A stretch of 60,972 nt of DNA, taken from contig WFYS01000081.1 of the NCBI GenBank assembly GCA_015490005.1, forward strand, positions 1 through 60,972, written 5' to 3'. Source of the DNA: Desulfurellaceae bacterium. Lineage in GTDB: Bacteria > Campylobacterota_A > Desulfurellia > Desulfurellales > Hippeaceae. A model generated the notes under the pieces. It was not told the DNA's origin, searched no databases, and saw nothing but the letters and a program-made list of their open reading frames with translations. The position numbers and the translations under genes are program-made. Below, piece by piece: positions 2,792 through 39,763 of this stretch; the first letter of the stretch is position 1, and every line of letters begins with the position of its first letter.

Positions 2792-3388
2792 ATGGCTAAT
2801 ATAACAGCACAGATGGTGAAAGAGTTGAGGGAGAGAACAGGCGCAGGAATGATGGCTTGCAAGAAAGCACTTCAGGAAACAGACGGTGACATTGAAAAGG
2901 CAATAGACAAACTCAGGGAAATGGGTCTTGCATCTGCTGCTAAAAAAGCTGGAAGGGAAGCTAAGGAGGGAAAAGTAACAAGCTACATACACGCAGGCGG
3001 TAAAATAGGTGTATTGGTTGAAATAAACTGTGAAACCGATTTTGTCGCCAACACGGATGATTTTAATAATTTGTGTAAAGATATAGCTATGCATATAGCT
3101 GCTGCAAACCCACAGTACGTTTCAAGGGAAGAAGTTCCAGAGGATGTTTTAGAAAAAGAAAAGAACATTATGAAGGAACAGTTAAAACAGCAAGGCAAAC
3201 CCGAGAATATACTGGATAAAATCGTAGAAGGAAAGATAGATAAGTTTTACGAGGAGACATGCTTGCTCGATCAGCAATTTATTAAAGATGACAGCTTGAA
3301 AATCAAGGACCTCATTCAAAATATAATTGCTAAACTGGGAGAGAATGTTGTTGTAAGGAGATTTGCTAGATTTCAAATAGGTGAATAG
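2792..3388 (+). CDS. tsf: Translation elongation factor Ts
   Basis: Guanine-nucleotide exchange factor that recharges EF-Tu with GTP. The 198-residue product has an N-terminal UBA-like domain ([19 protein letters not shown], about residues 9-27), then the conserved NCETDFVA segment near residue 79 and a dimerisation-type C-terminus. It is the short form, close to the Thermus length and well below the roughly 280 residues of E. coli EF-Ts. Shine-Dalgarno GAGGAGG lies inside the rpsB 3' end. It sits between rpsB and pyrH, as in most bacteria. Confidence 0.97.
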
Positions 3389-3391
3389 GGG

Positions 3392-4105
3392 ATGAATGAG
3401 CCTGTATTTAAAAGAATCTTGTTGAAATTGAGTGGGGAGGCCCTTATGGGCTCCCTTTCATATGGAATTTGTGAAGACACTATAAATGGAATATCCGAGC
3501 AGATAAAAGATGTGAAAGAACTTGGTGTTGAAGTATGCACGGTTATTGGTGGTGGCAATATTTTTAGAGGTGTTAAAGGCGCGGCTATGGGTATGGACAG
3601 GGCAAGTGCTGACTATATGGGCATGCTCGCAACTGTTATAAATGGATTGGCTTTACAGGATGCGCTTGAGAAGAAAGGTGTACAGACCCGCGTGATTAGT
3701 GCCATAGAGATGCGCGAAATATCGGAGCCCTATATTAGGCGTAGGGCGCTAAGGCATCTTGATAAGGGAAGAGTTGTTATATTCGTCGCTGGAACGGGTA
3801 ACCCATACTTTACAACAGATACCGCGGCATCTCTGAGGGCTATGGAGATGGGTGCGGATGTTATACTGAAGGCTACAAAGGTGGACGGAGTTTATGATAA
3901 AGATCCAATGATTTATGAAGATGCTAAACGTATAAAAACAATAACGTACATCGAGGTTTTAGATAAGAGTTTAAAAGTTATGGACTCTACAGCTATATCT
4001 ATGTGTATGGAAAATCATATGCCAATAATAGTGTTTTCAATTAAAGAATATGGTGCTTTAAAGCGTATAGTGCTGGGGGAAAATATAGGAACTTTGGTTA
4101 AGTAA
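3392..4105 (+). CDS. pyrH: UMP kinase
   Basis: Cytosolic hexameric enzyme that phosphorylates UMP to UDP with ATP in pyrimidine nucleotide synthesis. The 237-residue length is normal. It opens with the family signature [12 protein letters not shown], followed by the glycine-rich IGGGNIFRG loop near residue 51, [18 protein letters not shown] in the centre and [12 protein letters not shown] near residue 134. It follows tsf by three bases and precedes frr by 16. No oddities seen. Confidence 0.97.
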
Positions 4106-30617: not shown

Positions 30618-31217
30618 ATGCCTGAAAGTGTGAGAACAGAATTAAAAGAACTGGGTTTGGGAAGAAAGATTAGACAACTACGTCTTGATCGTGGTTTAAC
30701 AATTCAGGACGTAAGTGAAAGAACGGGATTATCTAAAGGGTTGATATCTCAAATAGAAAACGAACAAGTATCGCCCCCTATATCTACACTTATAAAAATA
30801 TCCAATGCTTTAAAAGTAGAGCTAGCTTATTTCTTTATGAAGGAAGATGAAGATCCGAAAATTGCTGTAATAAAAAGAGGAGAGAGAGTTACTTCTGCTA
30901 GAAGGGGCGTAAAGGGTAATATAAATGTTGGATACACTTATGAGCTTTTGGCTCACAAGAAAAGACATAAGCACATGGAGCCTTTTATAGTAACTTTTGA
31001 GCCTAGAGATAGAGAAGAGGTTATTATGTTTAACCATAAGGGAGAGGAATTTCACCTTGTTTTAGAAGGAAAAATTGAATTTCTTACAGATATTGAGAAC
31101 CCTATTGTTTTAGAAGAAGGTGATGCATTGTATTTTGACTCTACAATTGCACACGGTTTTAGAGCTTTAGATGGGAAACCTGCAAAAACTGTAGCTGTTG
31201 TTTTTCAATCAGAATGA
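30618..31217 (+). CDS. XRE-family transcriptional regulator with cupin sensor domain
   Basis: The 199-residue protein has an N-terminal XRE helix-turn-helix (about 13-67, with recognition helix SKGLISQIENE) and a C-terminal cupin (about 108-197, with HKGEEFHLVLEGK and FDSTIAHGF). Such regulators often sit beside and sense substrates of acid-activation and 2-oxoacid pathways. It is the first gene of the operon, has GAGGAG upstream, and probably binds the palindrome at its own promoter. A related XRE-cupin module is fused to the last enzyme of the same operon. Confidence 0.9.
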   Translation: MPESVRTELKELGLGRKIRQLRLDRGLTIQDVSERTGLSKGLISQIENEQVSPPISTLIKISNALKVELAYFFMKEDEDPKIAVIKRGERVTSARRGVKGNINVGYTYELLAHKKRHKHMEPFIVTFEPRDREEVIMFNHKGEEFHLVLEGKIEFLTDIENPIVLEEGDALYFDSTIAHGFRALDGKPAKTVAVVFQSE

Positions 31218-31230
31218 AAGGGGTTTTGAG

Positions 31231-31773
31231 GTGATAGAAATAAGGTTTCATGGTAGAGGGGGTCAGGGTGCAGTAATTGCTTCTAAAATTTTAGCTTATG
31301 CCTATTTTTTGGATGGCTATCACTCTCAAGCATTTCCTACTTACGGAGCAGAGAGAAGAGGTGCTCCTGTTGCGGCATATGTCAGGGTTGATGATAAATT
31401 TATAAATGTTAGAAGCCCTGTGGTTAACCCGGATTATGTTATTGTTATGAGCGGGAAGTTAGCAGATACCGTGGATGTTTCAAGCGGCATAAAGGAAAAT
31501 GGGTTAATTCTAATCAATAGTGAGTTAAATGCCGATTATTACAATTTTGAGGAAAAATGTAGAGTTATGTGTTTTGATGTAAGTGGGATTGCCTTAAAAT
31601 ATGGTTTAGGAACTAAAATTATGCCTATTATCAATGTTCCTATATTGGGTGTGTTTTCTAAAATAACCAATTCTGTTTCACTAGAGTCATTAAAGAGGGC
31701 TACTCCAAGGTTTGTTTCAACTGGGATCGATAAAAATATAGAGGCTTTGGAAGAGGCCTATAACCTTGCTTAG
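31231..31773 (+). CDS. porG: 2-oxoacid:ferredoxin oxidoreductase gamma subunit
   Basis: Gamma part of the POR/VOR-type enzyme that oxidatively decarboxylates a 2-oxoacid to acyl-CoA and reduces ferredoxin. Family motifs: [19 protein letters not shown], then [18 protein letters not shown] and [11 protein letters not shown] at 31231 is chosen because it begins the first beta strand and AAGGGG lies upstream; the longer reading would overlap the regulator. The 180-residue length is typical. Confidence 0.93.
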
Positions 31774-31782
31774 GAGGCACTT

Positions 31783-33417
31783 ATGGAGAGCGTTGATTAT
31801 CAGAATGTAATTTCAGATAAAGATATAAGAAGATTTCCTATATCTATAACAACAACCGAAGTTAATCTTACTGGCTCATGGAGGTTTTATAAACCAGAAT
31901 TTAAAGAAAAGATTTCTCCTTGCAGTGTTGGTTGTCCAGCTAATACAAATATACCGAAATATATACATTATTTGCTTAAGAACGATATGGATAGGGCAGT
32001 TGAAGTTTTAAGGAGAGAAAACCCTTTTCCAGCGACATGCGGTAGGGTTTGCCCTCACTTTTGTCAATCTAAATGTAATAGAAAAGATTATGATGGGGCT
32101 GTAGAAATTAAACAAATTGAGAGATTTGTCGGTGATTATGCGCTAAAGGTGCCTCCCAAAAAAGCTAAGGTTCTTTCTAGCAAAAAAGTGGCAGTTGTTG
32201 GCGGTGGTCCAGCGGGTTTGAGCTGCGCCTATTTTTTGGCTTTAGGTGGGTATAGGGTTGACTTATTTGAAAAAGAACGTTTTTTAGGTGGGTTATTGAT
32301 TTATGGTATCCCAGACTATAGGCTTCCAAAAGAAGTAGCCACAAAAGAGATAGAAAATATACTTGAGGTAGGAAATATAAATGTCAATTTGGGCGTTGAT
32401 GTTAATAAAGAGAAAGTAGAAGAGCTGAAAAAAAACTATGACGCTGTTTTTGTGGCTTTGGGCCTATCTGAAGATAAAACCCCTGGAAATGTTGCTATTG
32501 ATAATGAACATGTTTTTTCTGGGTATGAGCTGCTAAAAGAAATTAAGGTTAACGGTAGGGTGGATTTAGATGGCGATAACATTTCTGTATTAGGCGGTGG
32601 AAATGTGGCGTTTGATATAGCCAGGTCTATTAGAAGAGCCGGTAAAGATGTTAATATAATATGCATGGAGACCCTTGAAACATCTCCTGCATTTGAAGAT
32701 GAGAAAAAAGAGGCTATAGAAGAGGGTATTAAGGTTGTAGACAGCCGTTTTCTGCAAAATTTGAAGATTACCGATAGGGGTTTACACCTGCAGCTTAGAG
32801 GCGTTGATAAGGTATTGGATAACTATGAACCTGTGTTAAATGATTATGTTGAGTATATGGATACGGATATCCTTATTGTTGCCATAGGAAGAAAAAGAGA
32901 AGAAAGTATATTGGGAATCGAAGGTGTATTCTTTGGTGGCGATTTCTATAATGGGGCTAAGACGGTCATAGAAGCAGTTGCTTCTGGTAAAAAAGCAGCA
33001 TTTGAGATTATGGCTAAGTTAGAGGGAAAAGAATTTAAATTGATGAATGAGGATGACCAATTTTTTAGGTCAACTGACGATTTTGATGAATATAAGGTTA
33101 TCCCATTTGAAAGAATAAATATTAACTATTTTAGCGAACAAAAACCTATAAAACTATCTAGGCTTGCAGCTAATGAGAGGGTTAATAACTTTAATGAAAT
33201 TGTTATGAAACCAAGTTTAGAAAAGATTTTAAGGGAGGCCAAGAGGTGTTTCAGCTGTGGAGTATGCAATGAGTGTAAAACGTGTTGGTTTTTCTGTCCA
33301 GATATGTGCATAGATGTGCATGAAAAAGTTGATTTTGATTATAGTTTTTGTAAGGGGTGTGGGGTCTGTTCTGAGGAATGCCCAAGGGGTGTTATTGATA
33401 TGGTGGAGGATAAATAA
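31783..33417 (+). CDS. GltD-like NAD(P)H oxidoreductase fused to PorD ferredoxin subunit
   Basis: Residues about 40-470 form a GltD-type reductase with the N-terminal Fe-S cysteines (47, 51, 86, 90, 94, 98), the FAD motif VVGGGPAG near 138-145 and a second dinucleotide motif SVLGGGNVAFDIARS near residue 270. The last 60 residues or so are a two-cluster ferredoxin (Cys489 onward, then CKGCGVCSEECP), equivalent to the delta subunit PorD. The fusion would pass electrons between the oxoacid enzyme and NAD(P). It lies between porG and porA, replacing a simple porD, and shares one base with porA (TAATG). Confidence 0.88.
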   Translation: MESVDYQNVISDKDIRRFPISITTTEVNLTGSWRFYKPEFKEKISPCSVGCPANTNIPKYIHYLLKNDMDRAVEVLRRENPFPATCGRVCPHFCQSKCNRKDYDGAVEIKQIERFVGDYALKVPPKKAKVLSSKKVAVVGGGPAGLSCAYFLALGGYRVDLFEKERFLGGLLIYGIPDYRLPKEVATKEIENILEVGNINVNLGVDVNKEKVEELKKNYDAVFVALGLSEDKTPGNVAIDNEHVFSGYELLKEIKVNGRVDLDGDNISVLGGGNVAFDIARSIRRAGKDVNIICMETLETSPAFEDEKKEAIEEGIKVVDSRFLQNLKITDRGLHLQLRGVDKVLDNYEPVLNDYVEYMDTDILIVAIGRKREESILGIEGVFFGGDFYNGAKTVIEAVASGKKAAFEIMAKLEGKEFKLMNEDDQFFRSTDDFDEYKVIPFERININYFSEQKPIKLSRLAANERVNNFNEIVMKPSLEKILREAKRCFSCGVCNECKTCWFFCPDMCIDVHEKVDFDYSFCKGCGVCSEECPRGVIDMVEDK

Positions 33418-34559
33418 TGAATAAAGATATGATGTTGGGTAGCGAGGCTGTAGCTTTAGGAGTTAAGCTTTCTCGGCCGAAGGTTATTTCTGCTTATCCT
33501 ATAACGCCGCAAACTCACATAATAGAGAAACTATCTGAAATGGTTGATGGCGGTGAATTAGATGCAAGTTTTATACGTGTTGAATCTGAACTTTCTGCTA
33601 TTTCAGCAGCGTTAGGGGCATCGCAGGCAGGCGTAAGGGCGTTTACTGCTACAAGTTCCCATGGGTTGGCTCTTATGCATGAAATTTTACACTGGATTGC
33701 CGGCTCTAGGTTGCCTGTTGTTCTGGTTAACGCCAATAGGGCAATCGGTTCCCCTTGGAATATATGGACTGATCAATCCGATAGTATGTCTCAGAGGGAT
33801 TTAGGCTGGATGCAGGTGTATTGTGAGACAGCCCAGGAGGCTTTGGATACTGTTTTACAAGCATTCTATGTTGCAGAAAAGGTTCTTTTGCCCATTATGG
33901 TGATGATAGATGGTTTTATTTTGTCTCATACATTGGAAGAAGTGATTATACCAAGTCAAGAACAGGCAGATAAATTTTTGCCACCTTATAAGCCTGAATA
34001 TTTTTTAGATGTAGATAATCCATTAAGTTTTGGCAATGCTGCTAAAGGAGATGTTTTTTATCATTTAAGAGAGGATATGCAATGCTCTATGGAAGCTTCT
34101 TTTGGAGTAATAAGAGAAGCTCATAATAGATTTGATGAAGCCTTTGGAAGAAAATACGATTTTGTTGAAGGATATTGTTTGGATGATGCTGAAATAGTTT
34201 TTGTTATTGCTGGTGCGCTGACTGGTACTATTAGAGTGGCTGTAGATAAACTGAGGGATTTAGGCATAAAAGCAGGCCTCCTAAAAATTAGATATTTTAG
34301 GCCTTTCCCTGCTGATATAATAAAAGAACTTTTGAAGACAAAAGAACATGTTATTGTTCTTAATAGGTCTGTTAGCTTTGGTAGCGCTGGGCAGTTGACA
34401 CAAGAAGTAAAAAATGCTTTGTATTATGAACCTAACAAACCTAATATCTACGATTATATCTTGAGCTTAGGTGGCAAAGATGTGTTCGTAGAGGATATAG
34501 TTAACTTGGCTAAGGATGTGGGAAATTTGAAAACCTCTAAGATGTTGTGGAGAGAATAG
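33417..34559 (+). CDS. porA: 2-oxoacid:ferredoxin oxidoreductase alpha subunit
   Basis: The alpha subunit carries the pyrimidine half of the TPP site and the substrate pocket. It shows GSEAVALGVKLSRPKVISAYPITPQTHIIE at the N-terminus, VESELSAISAALGASQAG, TSSHGLALMHEIL and the Rossmann-like C-terminal part with IVLNRSVSFGSAGQL. At 380 residues it is a normal separate alpha chain. Pyruvate and 2-ketoisovalerate enzymes are too similar to tell apart by eye; the downstream butyrate kinase and phosphate butyryltransferase argue for branched-chain acids. Confidence 0.92.
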   Translation: MNKDMMLGSEAVALGVKLSRPKVISAYPITPQTHIIEKLSEMVDGGELDASFIRVESELSAISAALGASQAGVRAFTATSSHGLALMHEILHWIAGSRLPVVLVNANRAIGSPWNIWTDQSDSMSQRDLGWMQVYCETAQEALDTVLQAFYVAEKVLLPIMVMIDGFILSHTLEEVIIPSQEQADKFLPPYKPEYFLDVDNPLSFGNAAKGDVFYHLREDMQCSMEASFGVIREAHNRFDEAFGRKYDFVEGYCLDDAEIVFVIAGALTGTIRVAVDKLRDLGIKAGLLKIRYFRPFPADIIKELLKTKEHVIVLNRSVSFGSAGQLTQEVKNALYYEPNKPNIYDYILSLGGKDVFVEDIVNLAKDVGNLKTSKMLWRE

Positions 34560-34569
34560 GGAGTATAAA

Positions 34570-35442
34570 ATGGATTTTAGAGAAGTAACAAATATAGAGT
34601 ATATGAACCAGGGAGATTTTGCATGTCCTGGTTGTGGTGCCGGCTTGTCGATGAGACATGCTCTAAAGGTTTTAGGTGATAAGACATTGATAGTTATGCC
34701 TGCTTCTTGCTGGTCTATTATTTCAGGTGTATTTCCGACAGCAGCCCTTCAGGTTCCTTTGATGCATGTGCCGTTTGCTACAGCTGCAGCAGTGGCTAGT
34801 GGTGTTAAAAACGCATTTCGCAAAAAAGGACAGGAAGATGTTAACGTTGTGTGTTGGGCTGGCGACGGTGGAACATTTGATATAGGCTTGCAGGCTTTAA
34901 GCGGCGCTGCCGAGAGAAAAGAAGACATAATTTACGTTTGCTATGATAATGAGGCCTACATGAACACAGGCATACAGAGAAGCTCTGCTACTCCTCCTGG
35001 AGCATGGACAACAACAACCCCAACAGGAAATCCTTTAATTTACGAAAAGAAAGATATGTTCAACATAGTTGTATCTCATAATCCAGCCTACGTTGCTACT
35101 GCTACCATTGCTTATCCAGATGATTTTTACCAAAAATTCGAGAAAGCTAAAAATGCTAAGGGGTTTAGATTTATACACCTATTAAGCGCATGTCCCCCAG
35201 GATGGAGAATAGATTCTAAGGATTCAGTTAAAACCATGAGGCTTGCCGTTGAAAGCGGTGTGTTTGTTCTTATGGAAAAAGAGCAGGGGAAACCTACAAA
35301 AGTTACCTACAAACCCGATAGGTTTGTTCCTATCAAAGAATACCTTTTATCTCAAGGTAGATATAAACATTTGGATAAGGATACTATAAACAAGCTACAG
35401 ATTATGATAAATGAGCATTTGGCGAGTTTGGGATTGCTTTGA
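34570..35442 (+). CDS. porB: 2-oxoacid:ferredoxin oxidoreductase beta subunit
   Basis: TPP-binding beta subunit with the proximal [4Fe-4S] cluster. Seen: FACPGCGAGLSMRHAL at the N-terminus (cluster Cys), MPASCWSII, the TPP motif CWAGDGGTFDIGLQALSGA near residue 94, and CYDNEAYMNTGIQRSS. At 290 residues it fits PorB/VorB. It follows porA by 10 bases and shares one base with the butyrate kinase start. Confidence 0.93.
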   Translation: MDFREVTNIEYMNQGDFACPGCGAGLSMRHALKVLGDKTLIVMPASCWSIISGVFPTAALQVPLMHVPFATAAAVASGVKNAFRKKGQEDVNVVCWAGDGGTFDIGLQALSGAAERKEDIIYVCYDNEAYMNTGIQRSSATPPGAWTTTTPTGNPLIYEKKDMFNIVVSHNPAYVATATIAYPDDFYQKFEKAKNAKGFRFIHLLSACPPGWRIDSKDSVKTMRLAVESGVFVLMEKEQGKPTKVTYKPDRFVPIKEYLLSQGRYKHLDKDTINKLQIMINEHLASLGLL

Positions 35443-36506
35443 TGTTTGCTGTACTTGCTATAGATCCAGGTTCTACATCTACTAAAGTAGGCGTATTTTT
35501 TAAAGGTAGGTTACTCAAGGAAACCATTGACTATGACAGAGGGATTATAGATAGTTTTGATGAAATATTAGACCAAAAAGAGACGAGGGTTAAGTCTGTA
35601 TTTTCATTTTTGGAAAATAAAGGACTTGGGTCTTTAAAATTTGATGCTGTGGTAGCTAGAGGCGGTTTGTTGAAACCTATGGAGGGTGGTGTTTATATTG
35701 TAGATACTGTTATGCTCGAAGATTTAGAGAGTGGTAGGTATGGTGTTCATGCAGCTAATCTGGGTGGTATAATTGCACATGAACTGTCTACTAAATTTTC
35801 TTGTCCTGCTTTCATAGTTGACCCTCCAACAATTGATGAGATGGATAAGGTTGCAAAGTTAACAGGCTTTAAAGAGTTAGTTAGAGAAAGTAAGTTTCAT
35901 GCTTTAAACCAAAGGGCAGTTGCAAGGAAAGCGGCAGAACTTTTGAAAAAAAATTATAAAGAACTGAATTTAATTGTTGTGCATATGGGCGGTGGGGTAT
36001 CTTTGGGTGTTCATAAAAAAGGTAAAGTTGTGGATGTAAATAATGCTCTAGACGGAGACGGGCCATATGCTGTAGAAAGAACAGGTTCTTTACCCGTTGG
36101 AAGCCTTATTAGGTTAATTCAGGAAGGGAAATATTTACCCGATGAACTTTTATCCATTTTTTCTAAAAAGGGCGGAGTGTATTCATATTTAGGCATAACA
36201 GATATGAAAAGAATTGAGGAAATGATCAAGAAGGGTGATAATTATGCTAAACTTGTTGTAGATGGTTTTGTTTATCAAGTGGCAAAAGAGATTGGAGCTC
36301 TATCTTGTGTTGTGGATGGAAAGGTGGACGGAATTGTGTTTACAGGTGGCTTGGCTTACAGCGATTATGTTGTTGATAGATTAAAGAAAAAGGTATCTTT
36401 TATCGCCCCAAATTTTGTTTTTCCGGGAGAATTTGAGATAGAAACACTTGTAGATGGGGCTTTAAGGGTTTTAAAAGGTTTTGAAGAAGCGAAAAAATAC
36501 GATTAG
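35442..36506 (+). CDS. buk: Butyrate kinase family acyl-phosphate kinase
   Basis: Makes ATP and a short-chain fatty acid from an acyl-phosphate (butyryl- or branched-chain). It is an ASKHA-fold protein: AIDPGSTSTKVGVF at the N-terminus, VHMGGGVSLGVHKKGKVVDVNNALDGDGP near residues 183-211, RTGSLP, and VFTGGLAYSDYV near residue 300. The ATG at 35442 overlaps the porB stop; a TTG codon just before it is the alternative. At 354 residues it is normal for Buk and shorter than acetate kinase. The phosphate acyltransferase that feeds it is the next gene. Confidence 0.93.
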   Translation: MFAVLAIDPGSTSTKVGVFFKGRLLKETIDYDRGIIDSFDEILDQKETRVKSVFSFLENKGLGSLKFDAVVARGGLLKPMEGGVYIVDTVMLEDLESGRYGVHAANLGGIIAHELSTKFSCPAFIVDPPTIDEMDKVAKLTGFKELVRESKFHALNQRAVARKAAELLKKNYKELNLIVVHMGGGVSLGVHKKGKVVDVNNALDGDGPYAVERTGSLPVGSLIRLIQEGKYLPDELLSIFSKKGGVYSYLGITDMKRIEEMIKKGDNYAKLVVDGFVYQVAKEIGALSCVVDGKVDGIVFTGGLAYSDYVVDRLKKKVSFIAPNFVFPGEFEIETLVDGALRVLKGFEEAKKYD

Positions 36507-36515
36507 GTGGGGTGT

Positions 36516-38006
36516 ATGAATATTGGTAAGAATATAAGAACTGCAATGGAGCAGAAAAATATAGATGTGCATTTGTTATCTAGATTGACGGGAATTGATG
36601 TGGAAACACTTGAGAGTGTAGTGGAAAGTAAGATTGAGCCTATGGTTTCTGATGTTTTAAAGATAGCGAATGTACTTGGGGTTGATACATCCACATTATT
36701 TTACGGAAGGGCTTTTACTGATAAAAGGGCGGCTATGACATCTCATAAGAATAGGGTTGTGGTTGAAAGAAAGAAAGATTTAAAGTATGGAAACTTAGCG
36801 CCTAATTACAGCGGTAAACATATGGAACCTTTTGCTATAGAGGTTCACGAGTCTGATGATTCGGACTTAAGCAGGCATGTAGGAGAAGAGTTTCATTATG
36901 TTTTAGAGGGTAAGTTAAAAATAGTTGTAGGCAAAGATGAGTTTGTATTAGAATCTGGTGATTCTATTTACTTTGATTCTTCTATATCTCATAGCATTTC
37001 CTCTATTGAGGGGCTTTCAAAAGCAATATCTGTTATCTACAACCCAGGCTCTATGGTTCATGTGACGCGTAGTGGTAAGATGAGAGATTTAATACAAGCG
37101 GCAAAAATGTTGAAAAAGAGAAATATAGTGCTTGTGTGTCCAGATGATATTTCTTTAAGTTCTGTTAATAAAGCTATAGAGGAAGGAATAATAGAAAAGG
37201 CTTATTTGGTTGGAGATAAAAATAAGATAGATAATATGTGTAAGGACTCTTTGCTTCTAAAAGACAGGTATGAGTTTGTTTTTGTAGAGGATGGAGGTAG
37301 TTACAATAAAGAGTGTGCCAAAAACGGTGTGAAAATCATAAGAGAAGGAAAAGCCCAAATGTTAATGAAGGGCAAAATTAACAGTGTTTTCTTTATGAAA
37401 GCTGTTCTTGATAAAAAAGAGGGTATAGGCACCAACAGACGCTTATCTTTAGTGAGCATTTTTGAATTACCTAATCTAAACAGATTAATTTTCTTGACAG
37501 ATCCAGCCATAAATCCCGAACTATTTAAGGATAATAGTTTGGAAACATCAATTGATGTAATAAGAAACGCCATTGAAGTAGCGAAAAGCTTAGGTGTCGC
37601 AAGACCTAAAGTTGCCCTACTTGATGCCAATGAAATGCCGTCAAATAATATTCCTACAACAATTTTAGAAAAGAAGCTATCTGAGTTAGATTGGGAGGAT
37701 GCGGATGTTTACGGTCCTCTATCTTACGATCTTGCCCTATATGAAGATGCTGTAGATATTAAAGGTTTAAAAGGCAATCCAGTAGCGGGAAAGGCAGATA
37801 TATTGGTGGTCCCGCATATTGACAGTGGTAATTTTTTGTATAAAGCGTGGGTTTATACTATGGGTGCAGAGGTTGCTAATATTGTGTTGGGCGCAAGGGT
37901 TCCTTTAATTTTTACATCTAGAAGCGATAGTGAAATTATTAAATTTCTAACCATATGTGCTAGTGCTATTTATAGTGATTATCTGGTAAGAACTAAGAAA
38001 ACTTAA
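36516..38006 (+). CDS. ptb: Phosphate butyryltransferase with N-terminal XRE and cupin domains (fusion)
   Basis: A 496-residue three-part protein. Residues 1-64 are XRE-like, but the usual recognition-helix sequence is replaced (DVETLESVVESK). Residues about 100-178 are a cupin with KHMEPF, HVGEEFH (His121, Glu124, His127) and FDSSISHS, closely matching the regulator at 30618. Residues about 186-496 are a full phosphate acetyl/butyryltransferase ending in GNPVAGKADILVVPHIDSGN and VLGARVPLIFTSRSD. The enzyme part would make acyl-phosphate from acyl-CoA for Buk. The head may sense acyl-CoA or bind DNA. The ATG at 36516 follows AGGTGG; a GTG at 36507 is possible. Its last 14 bases overlap prmC on the other strand. 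Confidence 0.9.
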   Translation: MNIGKNIRTAMEQKNIDVHLLSRLTGIDVETLESVVESKIEPMVSDVLKIANVLGVDTSTLFYGRAFTDKRAAMTSHKNRVVVERKKDLKYGNLAPNYSGKHMEPFAIEVHESDDSDLSRHVGEEFHYVLEGKLKIVVGKDEFVLESGDSIYFDSSISHSISSIEGLSKAISVIYNPGSMVHVTRSGKMRDLIQAAKMLKKRNIVLVCPDDISLSSVNKAIEEGIIEKAYLVGDKNKIDNMCKDSLLLKDRYEFVFVEDGGSYNKECAKNGVKIIREGKAQMLMKGKINSVFFMKAVLDKKEGIGTNRRLSLVSIFELPNLNRLIFLTDPAINPELFKDNSLETSIDVIRNAIEVAKSLGVARPKVALLDANEMPSNNIPTTILEKKLSELDWEDADVYGPLSYDLALYEDAVDIKGLKGNPVAGKADILVVPHIDSGNFLYKAWVYTMGAEVANIVLGARVPLIFTSRSDSEIIKFLTICASAIYSDYLVRTKKT

Positions 38007-38799
38007 AGACCGCTACCCTGTCTATTCCTGATAAATCCTTTGATATTTTTAATAAATGGCTTTGGTTTCTAATAAACTGAGATTGGTCATAGCCAAACTC
38101 CAAAATTAGGTATCGTGTTAGACCTTGTGCGCGGGTTATCAAGTACTTTATAAAATCCAAACCGTCTTCTTTGGCTATTAAGGCCTCTTTGGGCTCGTAT
38201 TTGACATCATTCGTAAGGTTTTCGTAATCTTTCTCCGATACATATGGTGGGTTAGAGACTATGAGATCAACTTTTTTCCCTATCCATTCCAAGCCATTAG
38301 ACAGAACAAAACCCACTTTGGCTGTGTGTTTGTCTCTGTTAAGTCTTGCCACTGTTAATGCCTCCCGTGATATGTCCGATGCAAACACCTTTTTGTTCAG
38401 AAGTTTAAATAGAACTATCGCTATACAACCACTTCCCGTGCCAATGTCAACGATTGTGTCTATGTTGTTGTTTTTAGCTATGTTTATCGCTTCCTCTATT
38501 AACAGTTCTGTTTCGGGTCTGGGCATCAAAACACGCTCATCAACAAAAAATTCGTATCCGTAGAACTCCTTTTTGTGTGTTATGTATGCGATAGGGTACC
38601 TCTTTTTTCTCTTTTCTAAGAGCTTAAATAGATAGGGTTCCTGCTCTTGGGTTAGTTTGTAGTCCAAGTTTGTCAAAACGAATACGTCGCTTTTATTTAG
38701 GATCGTTTTTAACAGTATTACGGCATCGTTACCGTATGTGCCTATATTTGCTCCTTTTAACTCGTTTATGGCAGTTCTTAATGCTTCCCTAACTGTCAT
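37993..38799 (-). CDS. prmC: Release factor glutamine methyltransferase
   Basis: Methylates the GGQ glutamine of RF1 and RF2 with S-adenosylmethionine. The SAM-binding motif IVDIGTGSGCIAIVLFK, about residues 111-127, and the catalytic NPPYVSEKDYENL near residue 180 are intact, as is the MTVREAL start of the family. The ATG at 38799 is preferred to a TTG at 38808; both overlap tilS. In many genomes prmC follows prfA; here it ends a minus-strand operon after tilS and overlaps the converging Ptb fusion gene. Confidence 0.93.
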   Translation of the reverse strand: MTVREALRTAINELKGANIGTYGNDAVILLKTILNKSDVFVLTNLDYKLTQEQEPYLFKLLEKRKKRYPIAYITHKKEFYGYEFFVDERVLMPRPETELLIEEAINIAKNNNIDTIVDIGTGSGCIAIVLFKLLNKKVFASDISREALTVARLNRDKHTAKVGFVLSNGLEWIGKKVDLIVSNPPYVSEKDYENLTNDVKYEPKEALIAKEDGLDFIKYLITRAQGLTRYLILEFGYDQSQFIRNQSHLLKISKDLSGIDRVAVFKFS

Positions 38800-39763
38800 A
38801 CTTTTCAATAATTAACCAGTTGTTTGATCTTTTTGCCTTTATCTTACCTCTGAGATGAACGGTTTTTCCTGTTTTGACGGTTTCTTCTAACCTCTTGATA
38901 TTCTTAAAACTCAACGAATACTCACTTTCCAAAAGTGTTTTTACAATCAACGATAAACTCCTACCCAAAATACTTTTGCTTTTATCAAAATTTGTCAAGT
39001 TAACCATCGCTTTGTTTTGTGTAAATTTTGTCGATTTTATGCAGTTAATCTCCGCTTTGTTTTTCATATACTCCACATCATCAAGCATGGTCATGCCGCT
39101 TCTAAACAACGTTTCAATTATATTGGGGTTGAACTCCTTTAACTTTTCCAGCAAATTCAGCCTTATTTTGTTTCTTGTGAATTTTTTGTCCATGTTTGAT
39201 CTGTCAATTACAAATTCTATACTGTTTTTATTGAGAAACTCTACAATCTCTTCCTTTTTGAAAGTCATTATAGGCCTAATGAAATATCCGCGTTTGGGTT
39301 TTAAGGCAACCAATCCGTCTATTGTTGACCCACGTAGCAGGTTTATTAAGAACGTTTCTACAAAATCATTCATCGTGTGCCCTGTAGCTATGAAATCTAA
39401 ATCGAACTGGGATTTTGCTTTCTCAAAGAATGCGTATCTTTTGATTCTCCCCGCATGTTCTATTGAGAGTTTCTTTTCTTTACTCAATTTTTCAACGTTT
39501 CCTTTTTCTGTTAGAACCTTTAAATTCATAGTCTCCTCTAATCTTATGACAAATTGTTCCTCTTTATCGGCTTCCTTTCTAAGCTTATGATTAAAGTGCA
39601 GGACCATTAGATCTAAATTGAACTCATTTTTTAAGGCATTCAACAGTGTAAGTAAGAAAACCGAGTCTGGACCGCCAGATACGGCAACGCCTATTCTTGA
39701 GTGTTTGGGCAATAGATTATGTTCGTTTGCGAAATCTTTTAGCTTCTTCAACAATTCTTTCAT
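38789..39763 (-). CDS. tilS: tRNA(Ile)-lysidine synthetase
   Basis: Changes the wobble C of the CAU-anticodon tRNA(Ile) to lysidine with ATP and lysine, so that it reads AUA. The PP-loop SGGPDS is at about residues 29-34. LHFNHKLRKEADKEE and ATGHTMNDFVETFLINLLRGS follow, with HAGRIKRYAFFEK between. At 324 residues it is shorter than E. coli TilS, closer to the Aquifex form with a reduced C-terminus. It starts 47 bases inside the preceding membrane-protein gene. Confidence 0.94.
   Translation of the reverse strand: MKELLKKLKDFANEHNLLPKHSRIGVAVSGGPDSVFLLTLLNALKNEFNLDLMVLHFNHKLRKEADKEEQFVIRLEETMNLKVLTEKGNVEKLSKEKKLSIEHAGRIKRYAFFEKAKSQFDLDFIATGHTMNDFVETFLINLLRGSTIDGLVALKPKRGYFIRPIMTFKKEEIVEFLNKNSIEFVIDRSNMDKKFTRNKIRLNLLEKLKEFNPNIIETLFRSGMTMLDDVEYMKNKAEINCIKSTKFTQNKAMVNLTNFDKSKSILGRSLSLIVKTLLESEYSLSFKNIKRLEETVKTGKTVHLRGKIKAKRSNNWLIIEKYDS

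Follow-up and report, generated by a model that had tools for sequence, protein, structure and literature searches.

The window, a stretch of 60,972 nucleotides from a Desulfurellaceae genome, encodes a protein of 496 residues in which the head of an XRE-cupin transcription regulator is joined to a phosphate butyryltransferase (Ptb)-like enzyme. Sequence comparisons establish the fusion and its conservation, a single origin, the pairing with a butyrate kinase gene (buk), the loss of the DNA-reading signature, the retention of the ligand pocket and the intact Ptb residues. We consider it fairly probable that the protein is a working Ptb whose regulator head was turned into a metal- or ligand-sensing allosteric (or assembly) domain. 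The relevant features are listed in Table 1.

Table 1. Features of the window discussed in the text, with residue numbers referring to the fusion protein.
Feature	Position	Strand	Basis
Operator-like palindrome TTTAGTATTACTAAA	30580..30594	.	seen again ahead of buk in Deferribacterota
Standalone XRE-cupin of the VOR operon (regulator), not parent of the fused head	30618..31217	+	HTH_3 55.1 bits; tree
2-oxoacid:acceptor oxidoreductase (VOR-like) genes, four	31198..35442	+	profile matches
Oxidoreductase gamma	31198-31773	+	
Oxidoreductase GltD-like plus delta	31783-33417	+	
Oxidoreductase alpha	33417-34559	+	
Oxidoreductase beta	34570-35442	+	
Butyrate kinase (buk), obligate partner gene	35439..36506	+	TIGR02707 449.7 bits, cut-off 289.1; adjoins fusion 5' in 16/16
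XRE-cupin-Ptb fusion protein, 496 aa	36516..38006	+	frame call; same architecture in 16 genomes
HTH part, residues 1-62; retains the XRE fold but not the DNA-reading features	36516..36701	+	residue, charge and identity comparisons; model
Linker, residues 63-98; invariant R80, R85, Y91, L94, A95, P96	36702..36809	+	fusion alignment
Cupin part, residues 99-180	36810..37055	+	invariant triad in 16/16; HppE alignment
Putative 2-His-1-Glu metal site	H121 36876-36878; E125 36888-36890; H159 36990-36992	+	
Ptb part, residues 187-490; D405, K416, N439, K443, S468, R469, D471 kept	37074..37985	+	NCBIfam, alignment

The fusion gene is one uninterrupted frame from the ATG at 36516 to the stop at 38006, with an in-frame GTG at 36507 as a less likely start. 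The chain runs from an XRE helix-turn-helix (HTH) through a linker and a cupin to the Ptb-like domain. Pfam recognizes Cupin_2 at residues 113-162 (43.2 bits against a cut-off of 27.2) and PTA_PTB (PF01515) at residues 267-473 (91.3 bits against 24). HTH_3 at residues 7-59 falls marginally below its cut-off of 23 with 22.4 bits and reaches 28.1 bits in a Deferribacterota fusion (L039). Allowing for the marginal HTH_3 match, the head shows the domain order of XRE-cupin regulators, HTH_3 followed by Cupin_2. Sixteen genomes carry the fusion in an unbroken frame (50-100% identity), so a frameshift or assembly artefact can be dismissed as the cause of the fusion. In the two closest fusion pairs, where changes are few, dN/dS is about 0.02-0.07 for HTH, cupin and Ptb alike. 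The initial annotation had described an XRE head, a cupin and a complete Ptb in a single frame, which is borne out by the frame, Pfam, NCBIfam and the 16 genomes. It had also considered a stop or frameshift between cupin and Ptb, and the frame continues intact through this junction in all 16. Its statement that no XRE-cupin-Ptb protein had been described gains support from literature searches, which found no description with most subscription journals outside their reach. The architecture thus appears undescribed, with parts that are of known kinds.

In-frame fusions occur, among anaerobes of deep-branching lineages, in 7 of the 25 genomes of the window's phylum (Hippea and Desulfurellaceae relatives) and in 9 of 51 Deferribacterota genomes, two of the latter each on one long contig (2,157,835 and 2,234,389 bp). 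No further fusion was found in about 700 other genomes sampled across the domain (samples of 386 and 385 genomes, overlapping in part with the two-phylum sets). A pattern search run over about 85,000 species genomes recovered the same groups only, and because it missed eight of the nine Deferribacterota fusions, absence elsewhere is not proven. The distribution of buk (TIGR02707) matches that of the fusion, as exactly the 16 fusion genomes among the 76 of the two phyla carry it, always immediately upstream of the fusion gene. No other Ptb was detected in either phylum at E<=1e-25 across the 76 genomes, which leaves the fusion as the sole candidate Ptb partner for Buk there.

Judged by its sequence, the Ptb domain looks catalytically competent. 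NCBIfam Ptb models cover residues 189-487, corresponding to model positions 5-298 of 302, and the Ptb part is thus full length. Its scores lie below the curated cut-offs (225.2 bits against 399 for NF004472 and 213.7 against 410.5 for TIGR02706), as do those of the other fusions, indicating a divergent Ptb with an uncertain exact substrate. Nine conserved residues have been reported for the Ptb of C. acetobutylicum (CaPTB), some of them named for catalysis or binding (PMC9706017). The catalysis and binding residues map to D405, K416, N439, K443, S468, R469 and D471, which are invariant in all 16 fusions. The window protein differs at two of the nine positions, with N378 at Lys186 and I474 at Glu285, and the Ser283 position is occupied by Gly in some fusions. 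The fusions have no acid matching Glu285. A decayed active site was nevertheless rejected, since Asp282, which has a presumed catalytic role in CaPTB (PMC9706017), is kept as D471. Some standalone Ptbs also lack the Glu285 acid.

The fusion head is probably no longer able to read DNA, as suggested by the composition of its HTH. All 51 standalone XRE-cupins compared have Arg11 and Glu36, and none of the 16 fusions has either; there, both positions are hydrophobic apart from a single Thr at 36. From what is known of 434-type repressors, the pair is presumably a buried salt bridge. The recognition helix, residues 28-35 of the window protein, is acidic, as it mostly is across the 16 fusions. Its mean charge is -1.75 in fusions against +0.43 in standalones, and that of the whole HTH -2.4 against +3.1, in comparisons drawn, like those of conservation, from related sequences and with P values that overstate independence. 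Mean pairwise identity among the standalones is 43% in the recognition helix, 38% in the HTH, 34% in the cupin and 17% in the linker, against 27%, 42%, 57% and 56%, respectively, among the fusion heads. The best conserved segment of the standalones is hence the least conserved one in the fusion heads. The fusions are without the DNA-reading signature of XRE-cupin regulators (Arg11, Glu36 and an S-rich recognition helix), with the charge reversed, and by sequence they have also lost the DNA-binding HTH signature of BzdR-type and trigger-enzyme regulators. The HTH fold is still predicted confidently (pLDDT above 90), and purifying selection continues to act on it in close fusion pairs, as far as dN/dS from few changes can tell. 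The diverged recognition helix of the initial annotation is therefore real, with its acidic character and the lowest conservation in the head. The suggestion that the head might be allosteric and without DNA binding is favoured over a DNA binder by the Arg11/Glu36 pair, the charge and the conservation of the helix.

The sensor pocket shows the conservation that the recognition helix does not. R80, R85 and Y91 of the linker and H121, E125 and H159 of the cupin do not vary among the 16 fusions, and all six are conserved in 13 VOR regulators, with one K at 85. The 2-His-1-Glu triad is present in all 51 standalone XRE-cupins compared; outside the 13 VOR regulators, the remaining 38 show no conservation of R80/R85/Y91. 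Most of the fusion linker motif is common to VOR-operon regulators. With few exceptions, R80, R85, Y91, E92, A95, K101, E104 and P105 are common to the fusions and the VOR-regulator clade, and R80, R85, E92, A95 and K101 are uncommon in the remaining XRE-cupins. The head could instead be a mere dimerisation or stability module, for example for thermophilic life, with no role in ligand binding. XRE-cupin and HppE proteins oligomerise, and the HTH core was kept despite the loss of DNA reading, as would be expected of a scaffold. However, a scaffold would have no need for an invariant metal triad and an R80/R85/Y91 pocket over two phyla, and we regard this explanation as unlikely. The full-length AlphaFold model (pTM 0.51) predicts the Ptb half poorly owing to a shallow alignment, and no head-enzyme interface was therefore read from it.

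The initial annotation also raised the possibility of a trigger enzyme. The fusion would then bind an operator upstream of buk and of the VOR operon, and repress or activate according to the level of acyl-CoA or acyl-phosphate. In 7 of the 9 Deferribacterota, a palindrome of the VOR type with no more than one mismatch does lie between -17 and -33 relative to buk, against a mean of 0.03 and a maximum of 2/9 in 2000 rounds of shuffling. Genome-wide, several Deferribacterota have exact palindromes in numbers close to those of the control, which makes the operator weak as a genome-wide marker, and only its promoter position is telling. An HTH fold that is predicted to be intact would likewise suit a DNA-binding fusion. 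Yet the operator is conserved, in contrast to the mostly acidic recognition helix, which varies more than any other part of the head, and Arg11 and Glu36 are gone in all 16 fusions. Furthermore, each of the nine Deferribacterota fusion genomes has a standalone XRE-cupin with 39-45% identity to the regulator at 30618 and an invariant helix SKALISQIEN close to the SKGLISQIEN of the VOR regulator. The combination of conserved operator, invariant standalone helix and variable fusion helix argues that the operator near buk is read by the standalone regulator and that the fusion is a target. Control of DNA by the fusion itself is thus improbable.

Fold searches placed the phosphonate oxygenases HppE, Psf4, HEPD and MPnS and the regulator 1y9q closest to the head, the model of which has a mean pLDDT of 90 and HppE, 1y9q and Psf4 as best matches. 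H121, E125 and H159 align with HppE H138, E142 and H180, which we take to be its iron ligands. Y91 aligns with HppE Y105, presumably a phosphonate contact, and acyl-phosphate or phosphate might by this analogy be a ligand of the head, as a lead at most. The head might even be a metal-dependent cupin enzyme like HppE, acting on acyl-phosphate or acyl-CoA within a two-enzyme fusion, given these fold matches and the coincidence of the 2-His-1-Glu positions. The fold similarity is moderate though (TM about 0.6), and XRE-cupins are known as regulators, with the same triad in each of the 51 standalone members compared, so we give a second catalytic activity only a slim chance.

The fusion heads form one clade with support of 100/100, and so do the Ptb parts in their own tree, which indicates one fusion event. 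The head clade most likely lies near, but outside, the clade formed by the VOR-operon regulators (the two group with support of 89/84), which contains the regulator at 30618. By its placement in the tree, the 30618 regulator is a family relative of the fused head and not a recent parent. That the neighbouring regulator was duplicated and fused locally in this lineage, as first proposed from matching cupin motifs and in keeping with about 31% identity over 176 residues and common pocket motifs, is hardly credible, because the window head groups with the Deferribacterota heads in an old clade apart from 30618, and the DNA inspected shows no VOR operon around the Deferribacterota fusion. Pairing of XRE-cupins with vor operons is widespread. 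Standalone genes adjoin vorG at four further loci (L040, L042, L043 and L064, from Syntrophaceae, Deltaproteobacteria and Desulfothermus), and L043 and L064 have vorA and vorB there as well. A further XRE-cupin gene lies directly behind putative branched-chain amino-acid ABC transporter genes (L092 4775-9969, contig C16 of G000), where a link to 2-oxoacid metabolism is possible.

The genomic neighbourhood of the buk-fusion pair varies. Four genomes show the window-like order vorB, buk-fusion and prmC, with the G006 contig beginning inside the VOR operon. In the other 12 of the 16 genomes, the pair was not seen inside a VOR operon in the DNA inspected. In three genomes the pair is directly preceded by a group that codes for a phosphoglycerate mutase-like protein, one with a LUD domain and a DUF815 ATPase (L081 14086-15929, L037 1-1868 and L082 17507-19339). 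At L039, the Deferribacterota locus that was read throughout (from a Deferribacteraceae MAG), the pair stands alone behind two tRNA-like genes at 3300-3482. Such genes are likewise found upstream in G073 and G074 and are a possible integration point. In G003, a genome of the same genus, vorB adjoins prmC. This is not an ancestral empty site but a deletion, as the gap (8042-8200 of L084) holds two 57-bp stumps, one from the 5' end of buk, which scores 49 against at most 33 in 500 shuffles, and one from the 3' end of the fusion. Both genes were thus lost together. The prmC and tilS genes of the window (37993-39763) are 90-93% identical to those of G002 and G005, with several neighbour genes at 69-89% (compared with L034). 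Against G003 the pattern is reversed, with prmC and tilS at 65-67% and the remaining neighbours mostly at 88-94%. These identity contrasts suggest mosaic recombination around the buk-fusion pair.

In the reading we favour, the fusion would be a phosphate butyryl or branched-acyl transferase (acyl-CoA + Pi <-> acyl-phosphate + CoA) paired with the buk product (acyl-phosphate + ADP <-> acid + ATP). An XRE-cupin transcription factor domain would have been fused once, in the ancestor of these genes, followed by the loss of DNA reading with the ligand pocket retained. We infer that the head holds a metal through H121/E125/H159, binds a pathway metabolite (acyl-phosphate, phosphate, acyl-CoA or a 2-oxoacid) near the invariant R80/R85/Y91, and exerts an allosteric effect by passing its signal to the Ptb domain or by setting the Ptb oligomer. 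Transcription of the pathway would be left to a standalone XRE-cupin with a similar pocket. More tentatively, and at somewhat less than an even chance, the sensor of a regulator became the allosteric domain of a pathway enzyme, and transcription of that pathway is still governed by a relative whose pocket is similar. If true, a single metabolite would act on gene expression by way of one copy and on enzyme activity by way of the other. A conserved sensor in both an enzyme and a standalone regulator also provides a handle on the ligand of this XRE-cupin subgroup. The idea is directly testable with 16 natural variants, some of them on long single contigs.

Each part of the fusion has known counterparts. 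The Ptb of C. acetobutylicum (7vg9; PMC9706017) is about 33% identical and has the same conserved residues and a butyrate kinase partner. Standalone Ptbs are headless, unlike the fusion with its scores under the curated Ptb cut-offs, and one standalone pair (L135) has the gene order ptb-buk in contrast to the buk-ptb order of the fusion loci. XRE-cupin (PuuR-like) regulators such as 30618 and 1y9q have the HTH-cupin order and the cupin triad of the fused head, and those of the VOR type also the R80/R85/Y91 motif. The fused head differs in carrying an enzyme and in being without Arg11, Glu36 and the recognition-helix consensus. HppE, Psf4, HEPD and MPnS, the closest head structures with H121-x3-E125...H159 at the HppE ligand positions, are HTH-cupin metalloproteins working as enzymes with no acyltransferase fused, and as regards the oxidation of phosphonates the likeness is one of fold alone. 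In the E. coli-type long Pta, an N-terminal regulatory domain modulates a phosphotransacylase, but this domain is unrelated to the fusion head and is no former transcription factor. BzdR joins an XRE HTH to a shikimate-kinase-like domain and senses benzoyl-CoA (PMC3602430). Like the fusion, it thus combines an XRE HTH with an enzyme-derived domain in an acyl-CoA pathway, yet with opposite polarity: in BzdR the enzyme part is dead and DNA binding alive, and the fusion looks the reverse. In the usual account, an enzyme turns into a regulator when it acquires a DNA-binding domain, as has been suggested for BzdR. The fusion points the other way, to a working enzyme that captured a whole regulator, the DNA-reading surface of which decayed while the sensor remained constrained across two phyla.
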